From a virus: a DNA stretch of 23,313 nucleotides. Below are positions 8,069 through 13,208 of this stretch, in pieces. A program made the translations under genes and the position numbers. The stretch lies in the IMG/VR virus record IMGVR_UViG_3300017917_003154, positions 1 through 23,313 of that record. One strand, written 5' to 3'. Each line of letters opens with the position of its first letter. Within the stretch, counting starts at the first letter, position 1. The notes beneath the pieces are model-generated. The model made no database searches and was not told the origin of the DNA. It worked only from the letters and a program-made list of their open reading frames with translations.

Positions 8069-9943
8069 TTAATTTCTTATTTTAGTTCCAGACAAATAAC
8101 TTGATTCAGGTGTAAATCTACTTCCAGAAGCATTTTCACCAGAAGAAACTATATCTTTCTCTAATGAAATATTACTTTCGCCAATGTCCAGTTTTAAATA
8201 AACTGATTTTTTGGCAATGATATCATTTGAATATGGTGTTGCTTCAATTTGAATAATGTTATTTGGTTTTAATGTAGAAGATACATTTATATTATCTATA
8301 TTCAAAATTCCATTGACATAATCAACAGTTCCTATGTTATTTGATTGAACTGTAACTTGACCTGCACTGAGAGAAAATAGGAATAATCTGCCAGTTTTCA
8401 TATCTGAATTTGGAGAATCTGAAATATAAACTATATCAGGAATCCCCTTCACATAGAATCCTGAAGACCTAATATTGTATCCACCTTCATCTGTATGAAA
8501 TCTATTTTCAAAGCACACATAATATTTTGTAGCGTCATTTAAAATAGTTCCTACATTCCTTCTAATTTTAACTTTGGTGATGTTTGATGTAATTGAATTA
8601 TTAGTAGCATCAATAACTCTTAAAGATTTACTGTATTTGAATCTTCCTCCAAATTTATTCAAATCAGTAGAATTAGAATAAGTTGTTAAAGAATTTGTGA
8701 TTTGTGTTTGTAAATCACTTACGGAACCAATATAATTTGCATTATAGTAAACTGTAGAGTCAAGTTCCACATAAACAACATTGATATCTACAAATTCAGG
8801 TTTAATTCCTGCTACTGAATACTTTTTAAGAGAATTTAAAATAGATTCTTTAGTTGCTTCTGATAAGTAATCTGAATTTTTTGGTTTTGCTGCAATAAAA
8901 ACCTTTCCATATTGTGGAGGATTTAACTCTTCTCCCCCATATGCAGTGACTGATTCAATATTTGGGTAAATTGATGGTAAAATTGCTTCATAATCACCTG
9001 CTGTAACTGCTCTATATTGGGATGCATACAATCTTGGAGCATAATATCTTACAGATTCTATAGATTGAATATTATCGCCATTTTGAGAAGGAGTATTAGT
9101 GACAACAAAACCTACAGGAGGGGTTACTGAAGCACCAGAATTGTCTGTAAATGATCCAGAGAATGTGAAATTGGATGCACCATTACCTGCTGGACCATTA
9201 GTGACAACATAGGAGACGCTAATTTGATCACCATTGCTTAATTTTTTCCCAAAAATGCCATCTCCAAAGAAAAGTTCATAAGTTTCATCAGAAATTTCTT
9301 GAATTAAGAAGATTTGTGAGGTAGAATTGATGCCAACAATGTTATCTACTGCAGTATATTGCTCATTAGTTCCACCATTACTGACAGTTACCCTAATTGT
9401 AGAGGTATCTACATAAGGATTTGGTATAATAAATTTCTGATTTGGTTGAGAATTGTCTACTGAAAATGTTTTTGTGAGATATGTTCCTTCATAAATGTCA
9501 ATATTAGAGAAAACTGCTTCATTATTTGACACTCCAACAGTAATATCTTCTGGAATTGAAAAAATGTAACTAGTATTATCTAATGAACCTGTACAAACTA
9601 TGCCTGAGTTGAGAGTTAATGTCTTAACTGATGAATTAAGACCTGTTACAATAAAAGAAATATTTGCTTTTGATGCTTTTCGTGACTGTGGAACGAACCC
9701 TATATTCCTTGCAAGAGAGACTACATTCTCTCTAAGGGTTGCACTGTCAAGGAATGCCTCATTTGCCACCATATTGGTGTTGTAGGCAGTCAGATAACTG
9801 TTATAGGCAAGGATATCAATCAGAATAGAAAAGTTAGAACCTTCAAAATCAAAGTCGCTAAAGGTTGAATTTGCCCTTAAGTAATCTTTAATAGAGGCTC
9901 TAATCTGATCGAAGTCCAGATTAGTAAAATCTGTAAATGCCAT
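8069..9943 (-). CDS. 6: Baseplate wedge protein gp6
   Basis: A 624-residue protein of the T4 gp6 / phage baseplate J family, which forms the inner ring of the baseplate that links the wedges. The N-terminus (MAFTDFTNLDFDQIRASIKD, then FEGSNFSILIDILAYNSYLTAYNTNMVANEAFLDSA in residues 34-69) is the strongly conserved gp6 signature; the middle carries the J-like region with ELFFGDGIFGKKL. The ATG overlaps the gp25 stop (TAATG), implying translational coupling, and the giant structural gene follows after one base. The first 110 or so codons are clearly richer in G+C than the rest. Family assignment is confident; the C-terminal 300 residues are less conserved. Confidence 0.95.
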   Translation of the reverse strand: MAFTDFTNLDFDQIRASIKDYLRANSTFSDFDFEGSNFSILIDILAYNSYLTAYNTNMVANEAFLDSATLRENVVSLARNIGFVPQSRKASKANISFIVTGLNSSVKTLTLNSGIVCTGSLDNTSYIFSIPEDITVGVSNNEAVFSNIDIYEGTYLTKTFSVDNSQPNQKFIIPNPYVDTSTIRVTVSNGGTNEQYTAVDNIVGINSTSQIFLIQEISDETYELFFGDGIFGKKLSNGDQISVSYVVTNGPAGNGASNFTFSGSFTDNSGASVTPPVGFVVTNTPSQNGDNIQSIESVRYYAPRLYASQYRAVTAGDYEAILPSIYPNIESVTAYGGEELNPPQYGKVFIAAKPKNSDYLSEATKESILNSLKKYSVAGIKPEFVDINVVYVELDSTVYYNANYIGSVSDLQTQITNSLTTYSNSTDLNKFGGRFKYSKSLRVIDATNNSITSNITKVKIRRNVGTILNDATKYYVCFENRFHTDEGGYNIRSSGFYVKGIPDIVYISDSPNSDMKTGRLFLFSLSAGQVTVQSNNIGTVDYVNGILNIDNINVSSTLKPNNIIQIEATPYSNDIIAKKSVYLKLDIGESNISLEKDIVSSGENASGSRFTPESSYLSGTKIRN

Positions 9944-10347
9944 TAGTATCTGGTTGGTTGTAATATGAAGTTAATTGCTTGTGTTGGAACAGCAAGTCCA
10001 ACAATATCATATGTAATAGTAACATCTAACTCATTATCTTCAGGATATAATGCAACATTTACATCTCTGACCAAAACTCTTGGTTCAAAGTTAGATAAAA
10101 CGGTTCTAATTTCTTCTTGTAAAGGGTCAACAATACCACTATCTGCAAGTTCAAAGAAGTAAGATTCTACTTTTGACCCTAAAAGTGAGTTAAAGAACCT
10201 TTCGCCAACTCTTGTTCTTACTAAATTCACTACAGATCGCTTGATTGCGTCTTCATTTGAGAGTGTTCCAATGTCGTTAGTTACAGGATGCCTTAGAAAA
10301 GACAAGCTGATATCTTTAAATCCCCTTGAAATATTCTCTAAAGGCAC
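9943..10347 (-). CDS. 25: Baseplate wedge protein gp25 (gpW/gp25, lysozyme-like family)
   Basis: 134 residues, the usual size for T4 gp25 and for the related type VI secretion TssE. The sequence NISRGFKDISLSFLRHPVTN at residues 5-24 and RVGERFFNSLLGS at 46-58 are family hallmarks; the C-terminus has the typical VTITYDIVG strand. gp25 binds gp6 in the baseplate wedge and helps initiate sheath assembly. The start is GTG at 10347: a TAG stands in frame three codons upstream and there is no ATG before the conserved block. No clear Shine-Dalgarno precedes it beyond an AGG touching the GTG. A T4-type late promoter box lies about 25 bases upstream, and the stop overlaps the gp6 ATG by one base. Confidence 0.94.
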   Translation of the reverse strand: MPLENISRGFKDISLSFLRHPVTNDIGTLSNEDAIKRSVVNLVRTRVGERFFNSLLGSKVESYFFELADSGIVDPLQEEIRTVLSNFEPRVLVRDVNVALYPEDNELDVTITYDIVGLAVPTQAINFILQPTRY

Positions 10348-10849: not shown

Positions 10850-11023
10850 TTAATCCTCTGAATCACGTGTACATTCTACCACAAGGTCCTCTGGTTTGGG
10901 AACCCCTGTCTCATAATATTGTTGAGACAGTTCATCCATGACCTCAAACATTTCTTCTTGAGAGAGGTACTGGTACAAAACTCTACCAGCACACAGAATT
11001 CTAAATGATTCTTGTTTTTTCAT
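10850..11023 (-). CDS. Unknown protein (57 aa)
   Basis: MKKQESFRILCAGRVLYQYL starts a 57-residue acidic protein (about ten E/D in the C-terminal half) without recognisable motifs. Its ATG lies 23 bases inside the end of the glycosyltransferase gene, in another frame, and its stop is two bases before the next ATG, so the three genes look translationally coupled. The AGGA next to the ATG is too close to be an ideal ribosome-binding site, which again fits coupling. Confidence 0.72.
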   Translation of the reverse strand: MKKQESFRILCAGRVLYQYLSQEEMFEVMDELSQQYYETGVPKPEDLVVECTRDSED

Positions 11024-11756
11024 GTCCTACACGAATCTGAGGGTGGCACCAAATTTCAAAACCACACTTCTTGGCTTCCAGGCAGAAGGAAACATCTTCA
11101 CCACACATATCCTGAACCTCACCAGAGTCAAAGACTTGCATCTGAGGGGCAAACCATGGATACTTCATATCAACATGTTCAAAGACGCCTTTCTTAATCA
11201 GAACCCAACCAAAACCTGTGTAATCCACCGTGAATGGTTTTTTTCTGTTGGTAATGGTATCAACCATCTCATGGTTCATGACGCCTCCATTCTTCTTGAA
11301 GTCATCCTCTTCCAACCAGTGAGCAACTGAGGTGGTTCTACCATCTTCTGTGGCATACCAACCTGCTGCAATATCCTTGTCCATGGCAAAAATTGCCCAG
11401 AATGCATCTGTGTTAAAGACAATATCGCTGTCAATCCAGAGTTGATAGTCATAATTCAGTTTACCCTGCCAAGGTTCTTGGTCTGGTCCTGCCAATACAT
11501 TTGCACCAAGAACTTTACAACGTGCAAAGTTTACCATTGAACTATAGTCTTGTGAGATTTGAATACTTGCCCCTGCCTGTACCAGATCAAAACACAGTTG
11601 TACGAAGTTCTTCAAAAAGATATATGAAACCCCACGTCCTGGAAGACAAAATACAATACTCTTACCTCTAATTCGCTCCAGACATTCTTCCCTATTAAAC
11701 AAAGGTTGTTCTTCCTCTGTAGATTTTTTTGCTTTTACAGTAAATCCTTTAGCCAT
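11001..11756 (-). CDS. Glycosyltransferase, GT-A fold, family 2-like
   Basis: 251 residues. After a short charged N-terminus, KSIVFCLPGRG (32-42) is the first strand of a nucleotide-sugar binding fold. YQLWIDSDIVF (104-114) contains the D-S-D metal/sugar-nucleotide motif at 109-111. CGEDVSFC (218-225) is the acceptor-side ED motif and RVGHEK (242-247) a possible C-terminal metal ligand. These are GT-A features seen in cyanophage glycosyltransferases, which may decorate virion proteins or host surface sugars; donor and acceptor cannot be read from the sequence. No Shine-Dalgarno is visible before the ATG. A 14-bp perfect palindrome lies 20 bases upstream. Confidence 0.88.
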   Translation of the reverse strand: MAKGFTVKAKKSTEEEQPLFNREECLERIRGKSIVFCLPGRGVSYIFLKNFVQLCFDLVQAGASIQISQDYSSMVNFARCKVLGANVLAGPDQEPWQGKLNYDYQLWIDSDIVFNTDAFWAIFAMDKDIAAGWYATEDGRTTSVAHWLEEDDFKKNGGVMNHEMVDTITNRKKPFTVDYTGFGWVLIKKGVFEHVDMKYPWFAPQMQVFDSGEVQDMCGEDVSFCLEAKKCGFEIWCHPQIRVGHEKTRII

Positions 11757-11809: not shown

Positions 11810-12145
11810 TTAGTTCTCGTCAATATCGTCCTCTGACCATTCTTTCATGTGTTCCATTACTTCTTCCAAGGAATATGTCTTGACTTTTCCTGAATCAATG
11901 TCTTCTACCATCTGCATCAGATATTCAAGGAACTCTTTGGGGTATACATCATCCTCATTCAAAGACACCCAGAACCACTCTATACACTCCTGTAAGGGGT
12001 CTTCTACGGTTCTTGGTAGGGCATAGTCCTCATAGTTGCTTCTCATCAAATCTGACCAGATCCTGAAGGTACTTCTGATGGATTGCCAACCTGTCATCCA
12101 GCAGTGTCCAATCCAATATTCATACCAATTAAGTTTTTTTGCCAT
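11810..12145 (-). CDS. Unknown acidic protein (111 aa), tryptophan-rich N-terminus
   Basis: MAKKLNWYEYWIGHCWMTGW begins a protein with eight tryptophans, seven of them in the first 60 residues, and a very acidic C-terminus (EEVMEHMKEWSEDDIDEN). There is no transmembrane helix. The ATG lies 17 bases inside the end of the 53-aa gene in another frame, so translation is probably coupled; no Shine-Dalgarno is seen. I recognise no family; the length and style fit the conserved unknown proteins of cyanomyoviruses. Confidence 0.8.
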   Translation of the reverse strand: MAKKLNWYEYWIGHCWMTGWQSIRSTFRIWSDLMRSNYEDYALPRTVEDPLQECIEWFWVSLNEDDVYPKEFLEYLMQMVEDIDSGKVKTYSLEEVMEHMKEWSEDDIDEN

Positions 12146-12290
12146 CTGTAATAATTAAAAACTCTTCTACTTGAAAGTCTGTAGATAATCCTGCATGAAT
12201 CATCTGAGAAATACCTGTGAGGGTTTTCTGGCATTCGCTCAGGGTGCCCTCACAAAACACCTTATCCCTTGCAATTAACTTATATTCCAT
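12129..12290 (-). CDS. Unknown protein (53 aa), first well-supported gene of the leftward operon
   Basis: MEYKLIARDKVFCEGTLSEC starts a 53-residue soluble protein of unknown function. The start is supported by CAGGGTAAAAAATG, an AGGG ribosome-binding site seven bases before the ATG. It overlaps the following gene by 17 bases. A near-late box (TGTAAATA, one change from NATAAATA) lies about 50 bases upstream, and a sigma70-like promoter about 240 bases upstream, so both early and late expression are possible. Confidence 0.7.
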   Translation of the reverse strand: MEYKLIARDKVFCEGTLSECQKTLTGISQMIHAGLSTDFQVEEFLIITDGKKT

Positions 12291-12397
12291 TTTTTACCCT
12301 GGGAAATTTTTTTCATATAATGGGAACCAATTATATTTACAGTTTCCCACAGACAACTCACAATATAACACAGTTCTTCAAAAAGGTCCAGGGGCAT
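12275..12397 (-). CDS. Possible small protein (40 aa)
   Basis: ATG 12397 opens MPLDLFEELCYIVSCLWETV and ends NWIS-like at TAA 12275. It is preceded by CCCAGGTAAAAATG, almost the same leader and ribosome-binding site as the 53-aa gene that it overlaps by 16 bases, which is the main reason to list it. A longer reading to 12604 would begin upstream of the sigma70-like promoter and is cysteine-rich and improbable. A plus-strand frame also covers this place, but no plus-strand gene is supported elsewhere. Confidence 0.35.
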   Translation of the reverse strand: MPLDLFEELCYIVSCLWETVNIIGSHYMKKISQGKKWNIS

Positions 12398-12532
12398 TTT
12401 TACCTGGGAAAAATTTTTTTTATGGACTTGATATCGCTTTGTCAATTTGTCACCTCTGTAGGTTAGGGGAGTCTTGTTTTTTCGCATTACCCCCACCAAG
12501 GCAACACAAATACCCCCAAATACTGCCAATTC

Positions 12533-12561
12533 ACTATAACACACATCACAACATCTGTCAA
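12533..12561 (-). promoter_or_regulatory. Sigma70-type promoter, leftward
   Basis: Minus strand TTGACA (12561-12556), a 17-base spacer, then TATAGT (12538-12533): a full -35 match and five of six for the -10. Transcription would start near 12526 and run leftward into the 40-aa, 53-aa, 111-aa and glycosyltransferase genes, stopping at the 10671 terminator. It is the best promoter in front of that operon and points to early expression by host polymerase. A second TTGACA at 12445-12440 has only a poor -10 (TAAAAA). Confidence 0.75.
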
Positions 12562-12616
12562 CCCCTATACACTGAGACCCACACATTCTCACACTGATTA
12601 ACACTGGTTTTCCACA

Positions 12617-12660
12617 GGTTTGTTATACTTTTTCCACAAGTTTGTTATACTTTTTCCACA
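12617..12660 (+). repeat. Two tandem 22-bp iterons carrying DnaA-type boxes
   Basis: Copy 1 is 12617-12638 and copy 2 is 12639-12660. They differ only at the first base; each contains GTTTGTTATAC followed by the box TTTTTCCACA. A third box follows directly after copy 2 without the GTTATAC part. Perfect direct repeats of one helical double-turn are typical of initiator binding arrays. Confidence 0.8.
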
Positions 12661-12809
12661 AGTTTTCCACAGATTTCTAATAGTTTTCCACAGGCAAATT
12701 CACTGTCTATTTGTATAACTGTAGTGAGGCACTGTGTTCTCACTGTTTTACACTTAAGACCTGTGGAAAACTTTATACATGTGCCAGAAATCTTGGTGTC
12801 CTGGGGGTG

Positions 12810-12838
12810 TTGACATTTGGGAGGATTTGTGATACAAT
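12810..12838 (+). promoter_or_regulatory. Sigma70-type promoter, rightward, without a downstream gene
   Basis: TTGACA (12810-12815), 17-base spacer, TACAAT (12833-12838). RNA would start near 12845 and run rightward across the last two boxes and then antisense to the minus-strand genes from 13002 on. No plausible plus-strand gene follows, so the product would be a non-coding transcript such as a replication primer or an antisense RNA. Confidence 0.55.
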
Positions 12839-12964
12839 GGGGGCCAAGATCACAACAACCAGACACATTTACCAACACACAGTAGATAACACAAATAATT
12901 CACATGTTTTCCACAGAATTAACACAAACTGTGGAAAACTCATTTACATTTATTCTCACATTTT

Positions 12965-12990
12965 ATTGTATGTCGCTATACACATACAAT
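12965..12990. repeat. 9-bp stem-loop between the early operon and the origin-like region
   Basis: ATTGTATGT (12965-12973), 8-base loop, ACATACAAT (12982-12990). It lies 11 bases after the stop of the 68-aa gene in the direction of transcription. No T-run follows on the minus strand, so a weak or factor-dependent terminator, or a 3' end protecting structure, is more likely than an intrinsic terminator. Confidence 0.55.
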
Positions 12991-13001
12991 CTCCGTATCT
13001 A

Positions 13002-13208
13002 TTACAAATTAAACTCAAACTTATCCTCTAACATGTATGCTAACTCACTGACATACGACCACTCTAACCATGCCACACTTTCCTGCTCTTCAGTCTCACA
13101 TGCCTCAAGTTGTTTGTATGTCTGAGTCCTGAGAAGTTCAAGTCCTTGGATGATCCTTTGTGCATCCTCTGGACATAACTCTAATTGAAAAACTTTGTTC
13201 TGTTTCAT
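13002..13208 (-). CDS. Unknown protein (68 aa), last gene of its operon
   Basis: MKQNKVFQLELCPEDAQRII opens an acidic, probably helical protein (PEDAQRIIQGLELLRTQTYKQL-type helix, then SVAWLEWSYVSELAYMLEDKF). ATG 13208 is chosen over frames reaching to 13277 because it is one base after the upstream gene's TAG, giving a tight coupled junction. No membrane segment and no known motif. It is the last of five coupled genes read from the 14068 cassette and is followed by a stem-loop and the DnaA-box region. Confidence 0.72.
   Translation of the reverse strand: MKQNKVFQLELCPEDAQRIIQGLELLRTQTYKQLEACETEEQESVAWLEWSYVSELAYMLEDKFEFNL

Follow-up and report, generated by a model that had tools for sequence, protein, structure and literature searches.

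Clustered cyanobacterial-type DnaA boxes upstream of gp25 form a candidate host-DnaA-dependent replication origin in T4-like cyanophages

A short stretch of DNA packed with DnaA boxes is kept at the same place in many cyanophages, which suggests that host DnaA probably starts or controls the copying of their genomes. In the window, by which we mean the whole analysed viral record of 23,313 bases, this locus spans about 12.53-12.94 kb. It resembles a bacterial oriC, and we read it as a site for host DnaA whose most likely role is that of the phage replication origin, a reading in which we place about even confidence. At the level of sequence, the origin is supported by the boxes, their conservation and position, spacing and flanks of the oriC kind, promoter sequences, and the lack of a phage DnaA DNA-binding domain in nine related records. 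The neighbouring named genes are of the T4-like cyanophage type, and the window is a fragment of a T4-like freshwater cyanophage, whose gp6 has its best matches in Synechococcus phages at no more than 55% identity.

The window contains eight exact copies of TTTTCCACA within 12608-12938 and no other copy in its 23.3 kb (Table 1). For the whole window, 0.88 copies would be expected, and a count of eight was reached in none of 100 shuffles. Order-2 and order-3 Markov backgrounds derived from the window gave 0.013-0.015 boxes per 331 bp, with a maximum of one box in 2000 trials. Chance was thereby ruled out as the origin of the eight-box cluster, in agreement with an earlier note on this DNA, which had placed the boxes there and called them far beyond chance. 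The background rate given in that note, one occurrence of a 9-mer per about 130 kb per strand, needs correction: 4^9 corresponds to 262 kb per strand, and 131 kb applies to both strands together. Its start spacings for the five same-orientation boxes were right, and the placement of these boxes on one helix face holds approximately, with a phase coherence of 0.97 at a period of 11.0 bp and 0.84 at 10.5 bp. The inverted pair that it described is likewise present, and the lone eighth box on the minus strand had not been singled out. The boxes lie inside a gap (12146-13001) upstream of the GT-like gene and gp25, and the likely coding genes on either side are on the minus strand. A possible gene of 40 amino acids (12275-12397, minus) lies within this gap, left of the array and downstream of Pleft. 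An RNA element was rejected as a reading of the locus, as no Rfam family passed its gathering score in a search of the locus.

Table 1. Features of the box locus and its surroundings in the window
Feature	Position	Strand	Remarks
Baseplate gp6 gene	8069-9943		phrog_219
gp25 gene	9943-10347		
Glycosyltransferase-like (GT) protein gene	11001-11756		phrog_1574
First recognised gene left of the locus	11810-12145	-	phrog_31449; downstream of Pleft
Pleft, predicted sigma70-type promoter, extended -10	12533-12561	-	TTGACA-N17-TATAGT; predicted start about 12526
DnaA box starts	12608, 12630, 12652, 12663, 12684, 12762, 12907, 12930	+, +, +, +, +, -, +, -	
Left array, five direct DnaA boxes	12608-12692	+	start spacings 22/22/11/21
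Spacer, array to central box	12693-12761		contains conserved CACTGTGTTCTCACTG segment
Central reverse DnaA box	12762-12770	-	78-79 bp from last array box in most near relatives
Pright, predicted sigma70-type promoter, extended -10	12810-12838	+	TTGACA-N17-TACAAT; predicted start about 12845
Conserved block GGCCAAGATCAC	12842-12853	+	at predicted start of Pright transcript
Right DnaA box pair, inverted	12907-12938		12907+/12930-, 23 bp apart
68-aa gene bordering the locus	13002-13208	-	listed as 91-aa ORF to 13277
Early-promoter modules	about 14087, 14460, 15083, 15514, 16050, 16701, 17288, 18621, 19355, 20275, 21030	-	

Except for a weak microvirus match, the locus as a whole had no DNA homology in named phages, and the survey of relatives was therefore run by pattern and synteny. 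Near relatives were defined as gp25 homologues in IMG/VR, fetched independently of the boxes. Upstream DNA of about 3.5 kb or more was available for 28 gp25-homologue loci, and 22 of these have the exact cluster. Where the available flank contained it, the cluster lay 2.3-3.7 kb upstream of gp25, or about 8 kb in two contigs (L145 and L147), and several related contigs lacking it stop short of its position. Two further relatives bear degenerate boxes at the cluster position (L153 and L169), the former still with a spacing of 21/11/21. Near relatives usually hold three to five array boxes at 11/12 and 20-22 bp, and the two boxes of the right pair share one orientation in some of them. In the aligned relatives, box columns are 84-100% identical, as against 52-93% for the DNA between boxes. 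When a three-box DNA pattern was used alone, without gene criteria, it retrieved 109 viral contigs. Homologues of GT, gp25 or gp6 occur in 76 of these and point away from the cluster in 75, at median distances from the cluster of 1.4 kb (GT start) and 3.4 kb (gp25).

Among 25 complete isolates, 13 carry at least two exact boxes within 400 bp at one place only, 2-8 kb upstream of gp25 (DSL-LC03, DSL-LC02, S-SZBM1, P-TIM68, Sf-FR1, S-PM2, Syn9, S-RIM12, S-MbCM100, S-CAM8, S-RIM2, S-ShM2 and S-RIM8); given the relatedness of these phages, the counts do not represent independent events. The other 12 have no exact-box cluster (S-SRM01, S-CRM01, S-SSM7, P-RSM3 and others). Isolate DSL-LC03 (172.8 kb) has ten exact boxes, seven of them inside 457 bp, in an annotated intergenic gap of 605 bp (80113-80717), and a contig of 107.8 kb has all eight of its exact boxes inside 383 bp. 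Marine isolates possess chiefly an inverted pair resembling the right pair of the window, with a spacing of 23-25 bp in eight of them. This right-pair element is common to S-RIM12, S-MbCM100, S-CAM8, S-RIM2, S-RIM8, S-ShM2, Syn9 and S-SZBM1. The earlier note had proposed looking for the cluster at the same place in other cyanomyoviruses, and this check was positive.

The 9-mer TTTTCCACA is the published cyanobacterial DnaA box (PMC4674748). Domain IV of Cyanothece DnaA binds two such boxes 2 nt apart, apparently cooperatively, and does not clearly bind a single box (PMC4674748); the boxes at 12652 and 12663 have the same geometry, with 2 nt between them. In Prochlorococcus, thrC and dnaN flank the origin (PMC2836286). 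In the cyanobacterial contigs that we examined, clusters of the same 9-mer adjoin genes for DnaN, DnaA or threonine synthase, recognised from their translations, an arrangement that origins, known or predicted, also have (PMC4674748, PMC2836286). The host and phage sets are both dominated by spacings of 11/12 and 20-22 bp, the host set being partly selected for them because its search pattern demands such spacings and the phage comparison set not having been so chosen. Both sets also favour the box flanks GTTTTCCACAGGT, with G before and GGT after the box. Only nine of 61 genomes, sampled from the family of one host-side genome, contained paired exact boxes in the searched geometry, and exact clusters are thus not universal among hosts. 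The published 9-mer, the oriC-like flanks and spacing, and the conservation in place support well the earlier note's assignment of the boxes to the cyanobacterial type. The DNA-binding domain IV of DnaA (Bac_DnaA_C) was absent from nine such phage records, in a search whose control detected it in ten known bacteria, and a phage homologue of DnaA was accordingly dismissed for these nine. This absence points to host DnaA as the likely ligand, and the sequence makes it very likely that host DnaA binds the locus.

Like the cyanobacterial oriC linked to dnaN, dnaA or thrC, the phage locus has exact boxes spaced 11/12 and 20-22 bp, flanks of the form G-box-GGT and two opposed box groups. Unlike that oriC, it has no adjoining dnaA or dnaN, neither being present among the identified neighbours, and it lies between early and baseplate genes with predicted divergent sigma70-type promoters around the array. 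The T4 origins oriE, oriF and oriG are of the R-loop type, and the locus resembles them in belonging to a T4-type phage and in having a predicted promoter inside the candidate origin region whose transcript could prime synthesis. Use of DnaA boxes is not known for T4 origins, and the phage locus differs from them in its conserved box number, position and spacing. The origins of P1 (oriR), pSC101 and F combine their DnaA boxes with iterons and with a Rep protein. They share with the phage locus the presence of host DnaA boxes on a foreign replicon, but no recognised rep gene was seen beside it, with no rep family among the neighbouring proteins scanned. Furthermore, only the 9-mers are near-invariant in the phage locus and the spacers diverge, unlike in an iteron plasmid-type origin.

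The predicted promoters Pleft and Pright both match the sigma70 -35/-10 consensus and diverge, with the array between them. Pleft would read left toward the gene at 11810-12145, the GT gene and gp25, and Pright would read right, antisense to early genes. Many relatives keep such promoters. The alignment shows an order common to the window and distant isolates: a box pair, an AT-rich stretch, a GTCTTaGC-type block and TGTCAA. The GTCTTaGC-type block is the other strand of GGCCAAGATCAC, whose counterpart in marine isolates is a GTnGTCTTaGCAC block on the other strand, and TGTCAA is the -35 of a promoter directed away from gp25. The aligned marine isolates additionally have a TTGACA promoter toward gp25.

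Such divergent promoters make transcriptional control a serious rival to the origin, one that the earlier note did not raise. Host DnaA bound between the promoters might activate or repress them, and thereby time both the expression of the genes up to gp25 and an antisense transcript across early genes, with replication starting elsewhere. We consider this possible but clearly less probable than an origin. In its favour, promoter matches with at most two mismatches flank 57 (minus) and 46 (plus) of 63 nonredundant clusters, as against 18 and 20 in shuffles, but under a strict rule both promoters lie close by in only 25 of 72 clusters. The centre of the central box lies at about -80/-91 from the predicted Pright start. 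Distances from the central box to Pright group at 46-48 and 57-59 bp, and those from Pleft to the array at 47-50, 60-61, 70-72 and 104 bp. Box-promoter distances 11 bp apart suggest helical phasing, which we count for transcriptional control, although a count of each distinct distance only once gives no significant phasing. Moreover, Pright has no recognised gene to drive in its direction, and transcription and origin function are not exclusive.

An unlikely role is that of a sink, in which the boxes would titrate host DnaA as phage copies build up and so halt new host rounds. The locus shares a dense DnaA box cluster with datA, a DnaA titration site, and a high phage copy number would multiply the perfect boxes, of which one genome has up to eight, in arrays that are dense and phased. 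Against a sink, marine relatives hold only two to four boxes, and a pure sink needs neither the conserved position and pair geometry nor the flanking promoter-like elements; unlike datA, the phage cluster is conserved with promoters at one syntenic place.

An initiator or regulator encoded by the phage and recognising the same sequence is the least probable reading, and we regard it as very doubtful: T4-type phages have their own replication genes and many genes beside the locus have no assigned function, but the domain IV search was negative in the nine records, the flank preferences agree with host oriCs, and the neighbouring 68-aa protein is a simple predicted helical hairpin. Many freshwater relatives have a homologue of this 68-aa gene next to the cluster, whereas a search of named phages at E 0.01 gave none. 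Its product, a predicted two-helix hairpin with no match above a Pfam cut-off, was rejected as an initiator on these two grounds. Where the earlier note had left a choice between an origin using host DnaA, titration and a phage initiator with the same preference, the host DnaA boxes stood and the phage initiator became less likely.

The reading that we favour is an origin dependent on host DnaA. Host DnaA would form an oligomer upon binding to the phased array together with the central box and right pair. DnaA binding and transcription from the two divergent promoters could then open the duplex, either by way of an R-loop or by transcriptional activation. The helicase, loader and polymerase of the phage, all of the T4 type, would be installed at the opened duplex. 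Bidirectional replication would come first and recombination-dependent replication would take over later. We infer DnaA binding, strand opening, R-loops, priming, helicase loading and origin activity from the DNA itself. The usual view of T4-type phages is that they initiate without DnaA, which we count against the origin, as we do the lack of a clear skew switch, the lack of a strong unwinding element and the roughly half of isolates without an exact cluster. GC and TA skew have no clear switch at the cluster. In five of seven genomes the nearby extremum of the detrended GC skew, 4-14 kb upstream of the cluster, is a maximum and so has the wrong sign, an origin being expected at a minimum; gene-class composition confounds it. 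Nearest-neighbour stability revealed no exceptional instability at the locus; the flanks of the boxes are AT-rich, and marine relatives have an AATAAA-rich stretch near the box pair.

That several T4-like cyanophage lineages start replication at one such oriC-mimicking, host-DnaA-dependent locus upstream of gp25 is a broader proposal, which we hold tentatively, at slightly less than even confidence. In the literature searched, with subscription papers mostly outside that search, we found no description of DnaA boxes in cyanophages, and the word DnaA is absent from a comparison of 26 genomes (PMC3037559). For Syn9, a review cites a predicted single theta origin and calls it unknown whether other cyanomyoviruses possess one (PMC2984593). 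In many phages, sequenced isolates among them, the locus offers a precise origin candidate of some hundreds of bases, which makes this question directly testable. Syn9, which has the box pair, encodes the gp59 helicase loader. If host DnaA starts or controls replication of T4-like phages, this would depart from the T4 picture and combine a bacterial initiator with a T4-type replisome. Phage DNA synthesis would then be linked to a host cell-cycle protein, and tied to its availability, in ecologically important viruses.

Several minor observations were made along with the survey. The microvirus match concerns Microvirus mar31 (MZ089777.1, 1951-2047), which has 77% identity to the box array region. 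There are four such places in the microvirus record, a hint that this small, unrelated phage has repeats like DnaA boxes. Among the 109 pattern-found contigs, 26 had no match to the window genes used (L351, L363, L373, L375, L379, L394, L395, L406, L409, L423, L434 and others), and some of them are probably other phages that carry DnaA-box arrays of their own; the L351 array has a helicase gene nearby, and L406 an integrase gene. A viral record of 284,050 bases (G005) has four tight boxes at 239066-239129 besides a group at 29317-29434, and may thus hold two such sites. Finally, the minus strand of the window carries 11 near-identical early-promoter modules between 14087 and 21030, roughly GTGCCAGTTGA-N-AAGTGGCACA-N-CTTGACTTT-N-TGTGCTATCATACATGTATG, each ahead of a small gene. 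The ATG lies about where transcription should begin, so the mRNAs may be leaderless.
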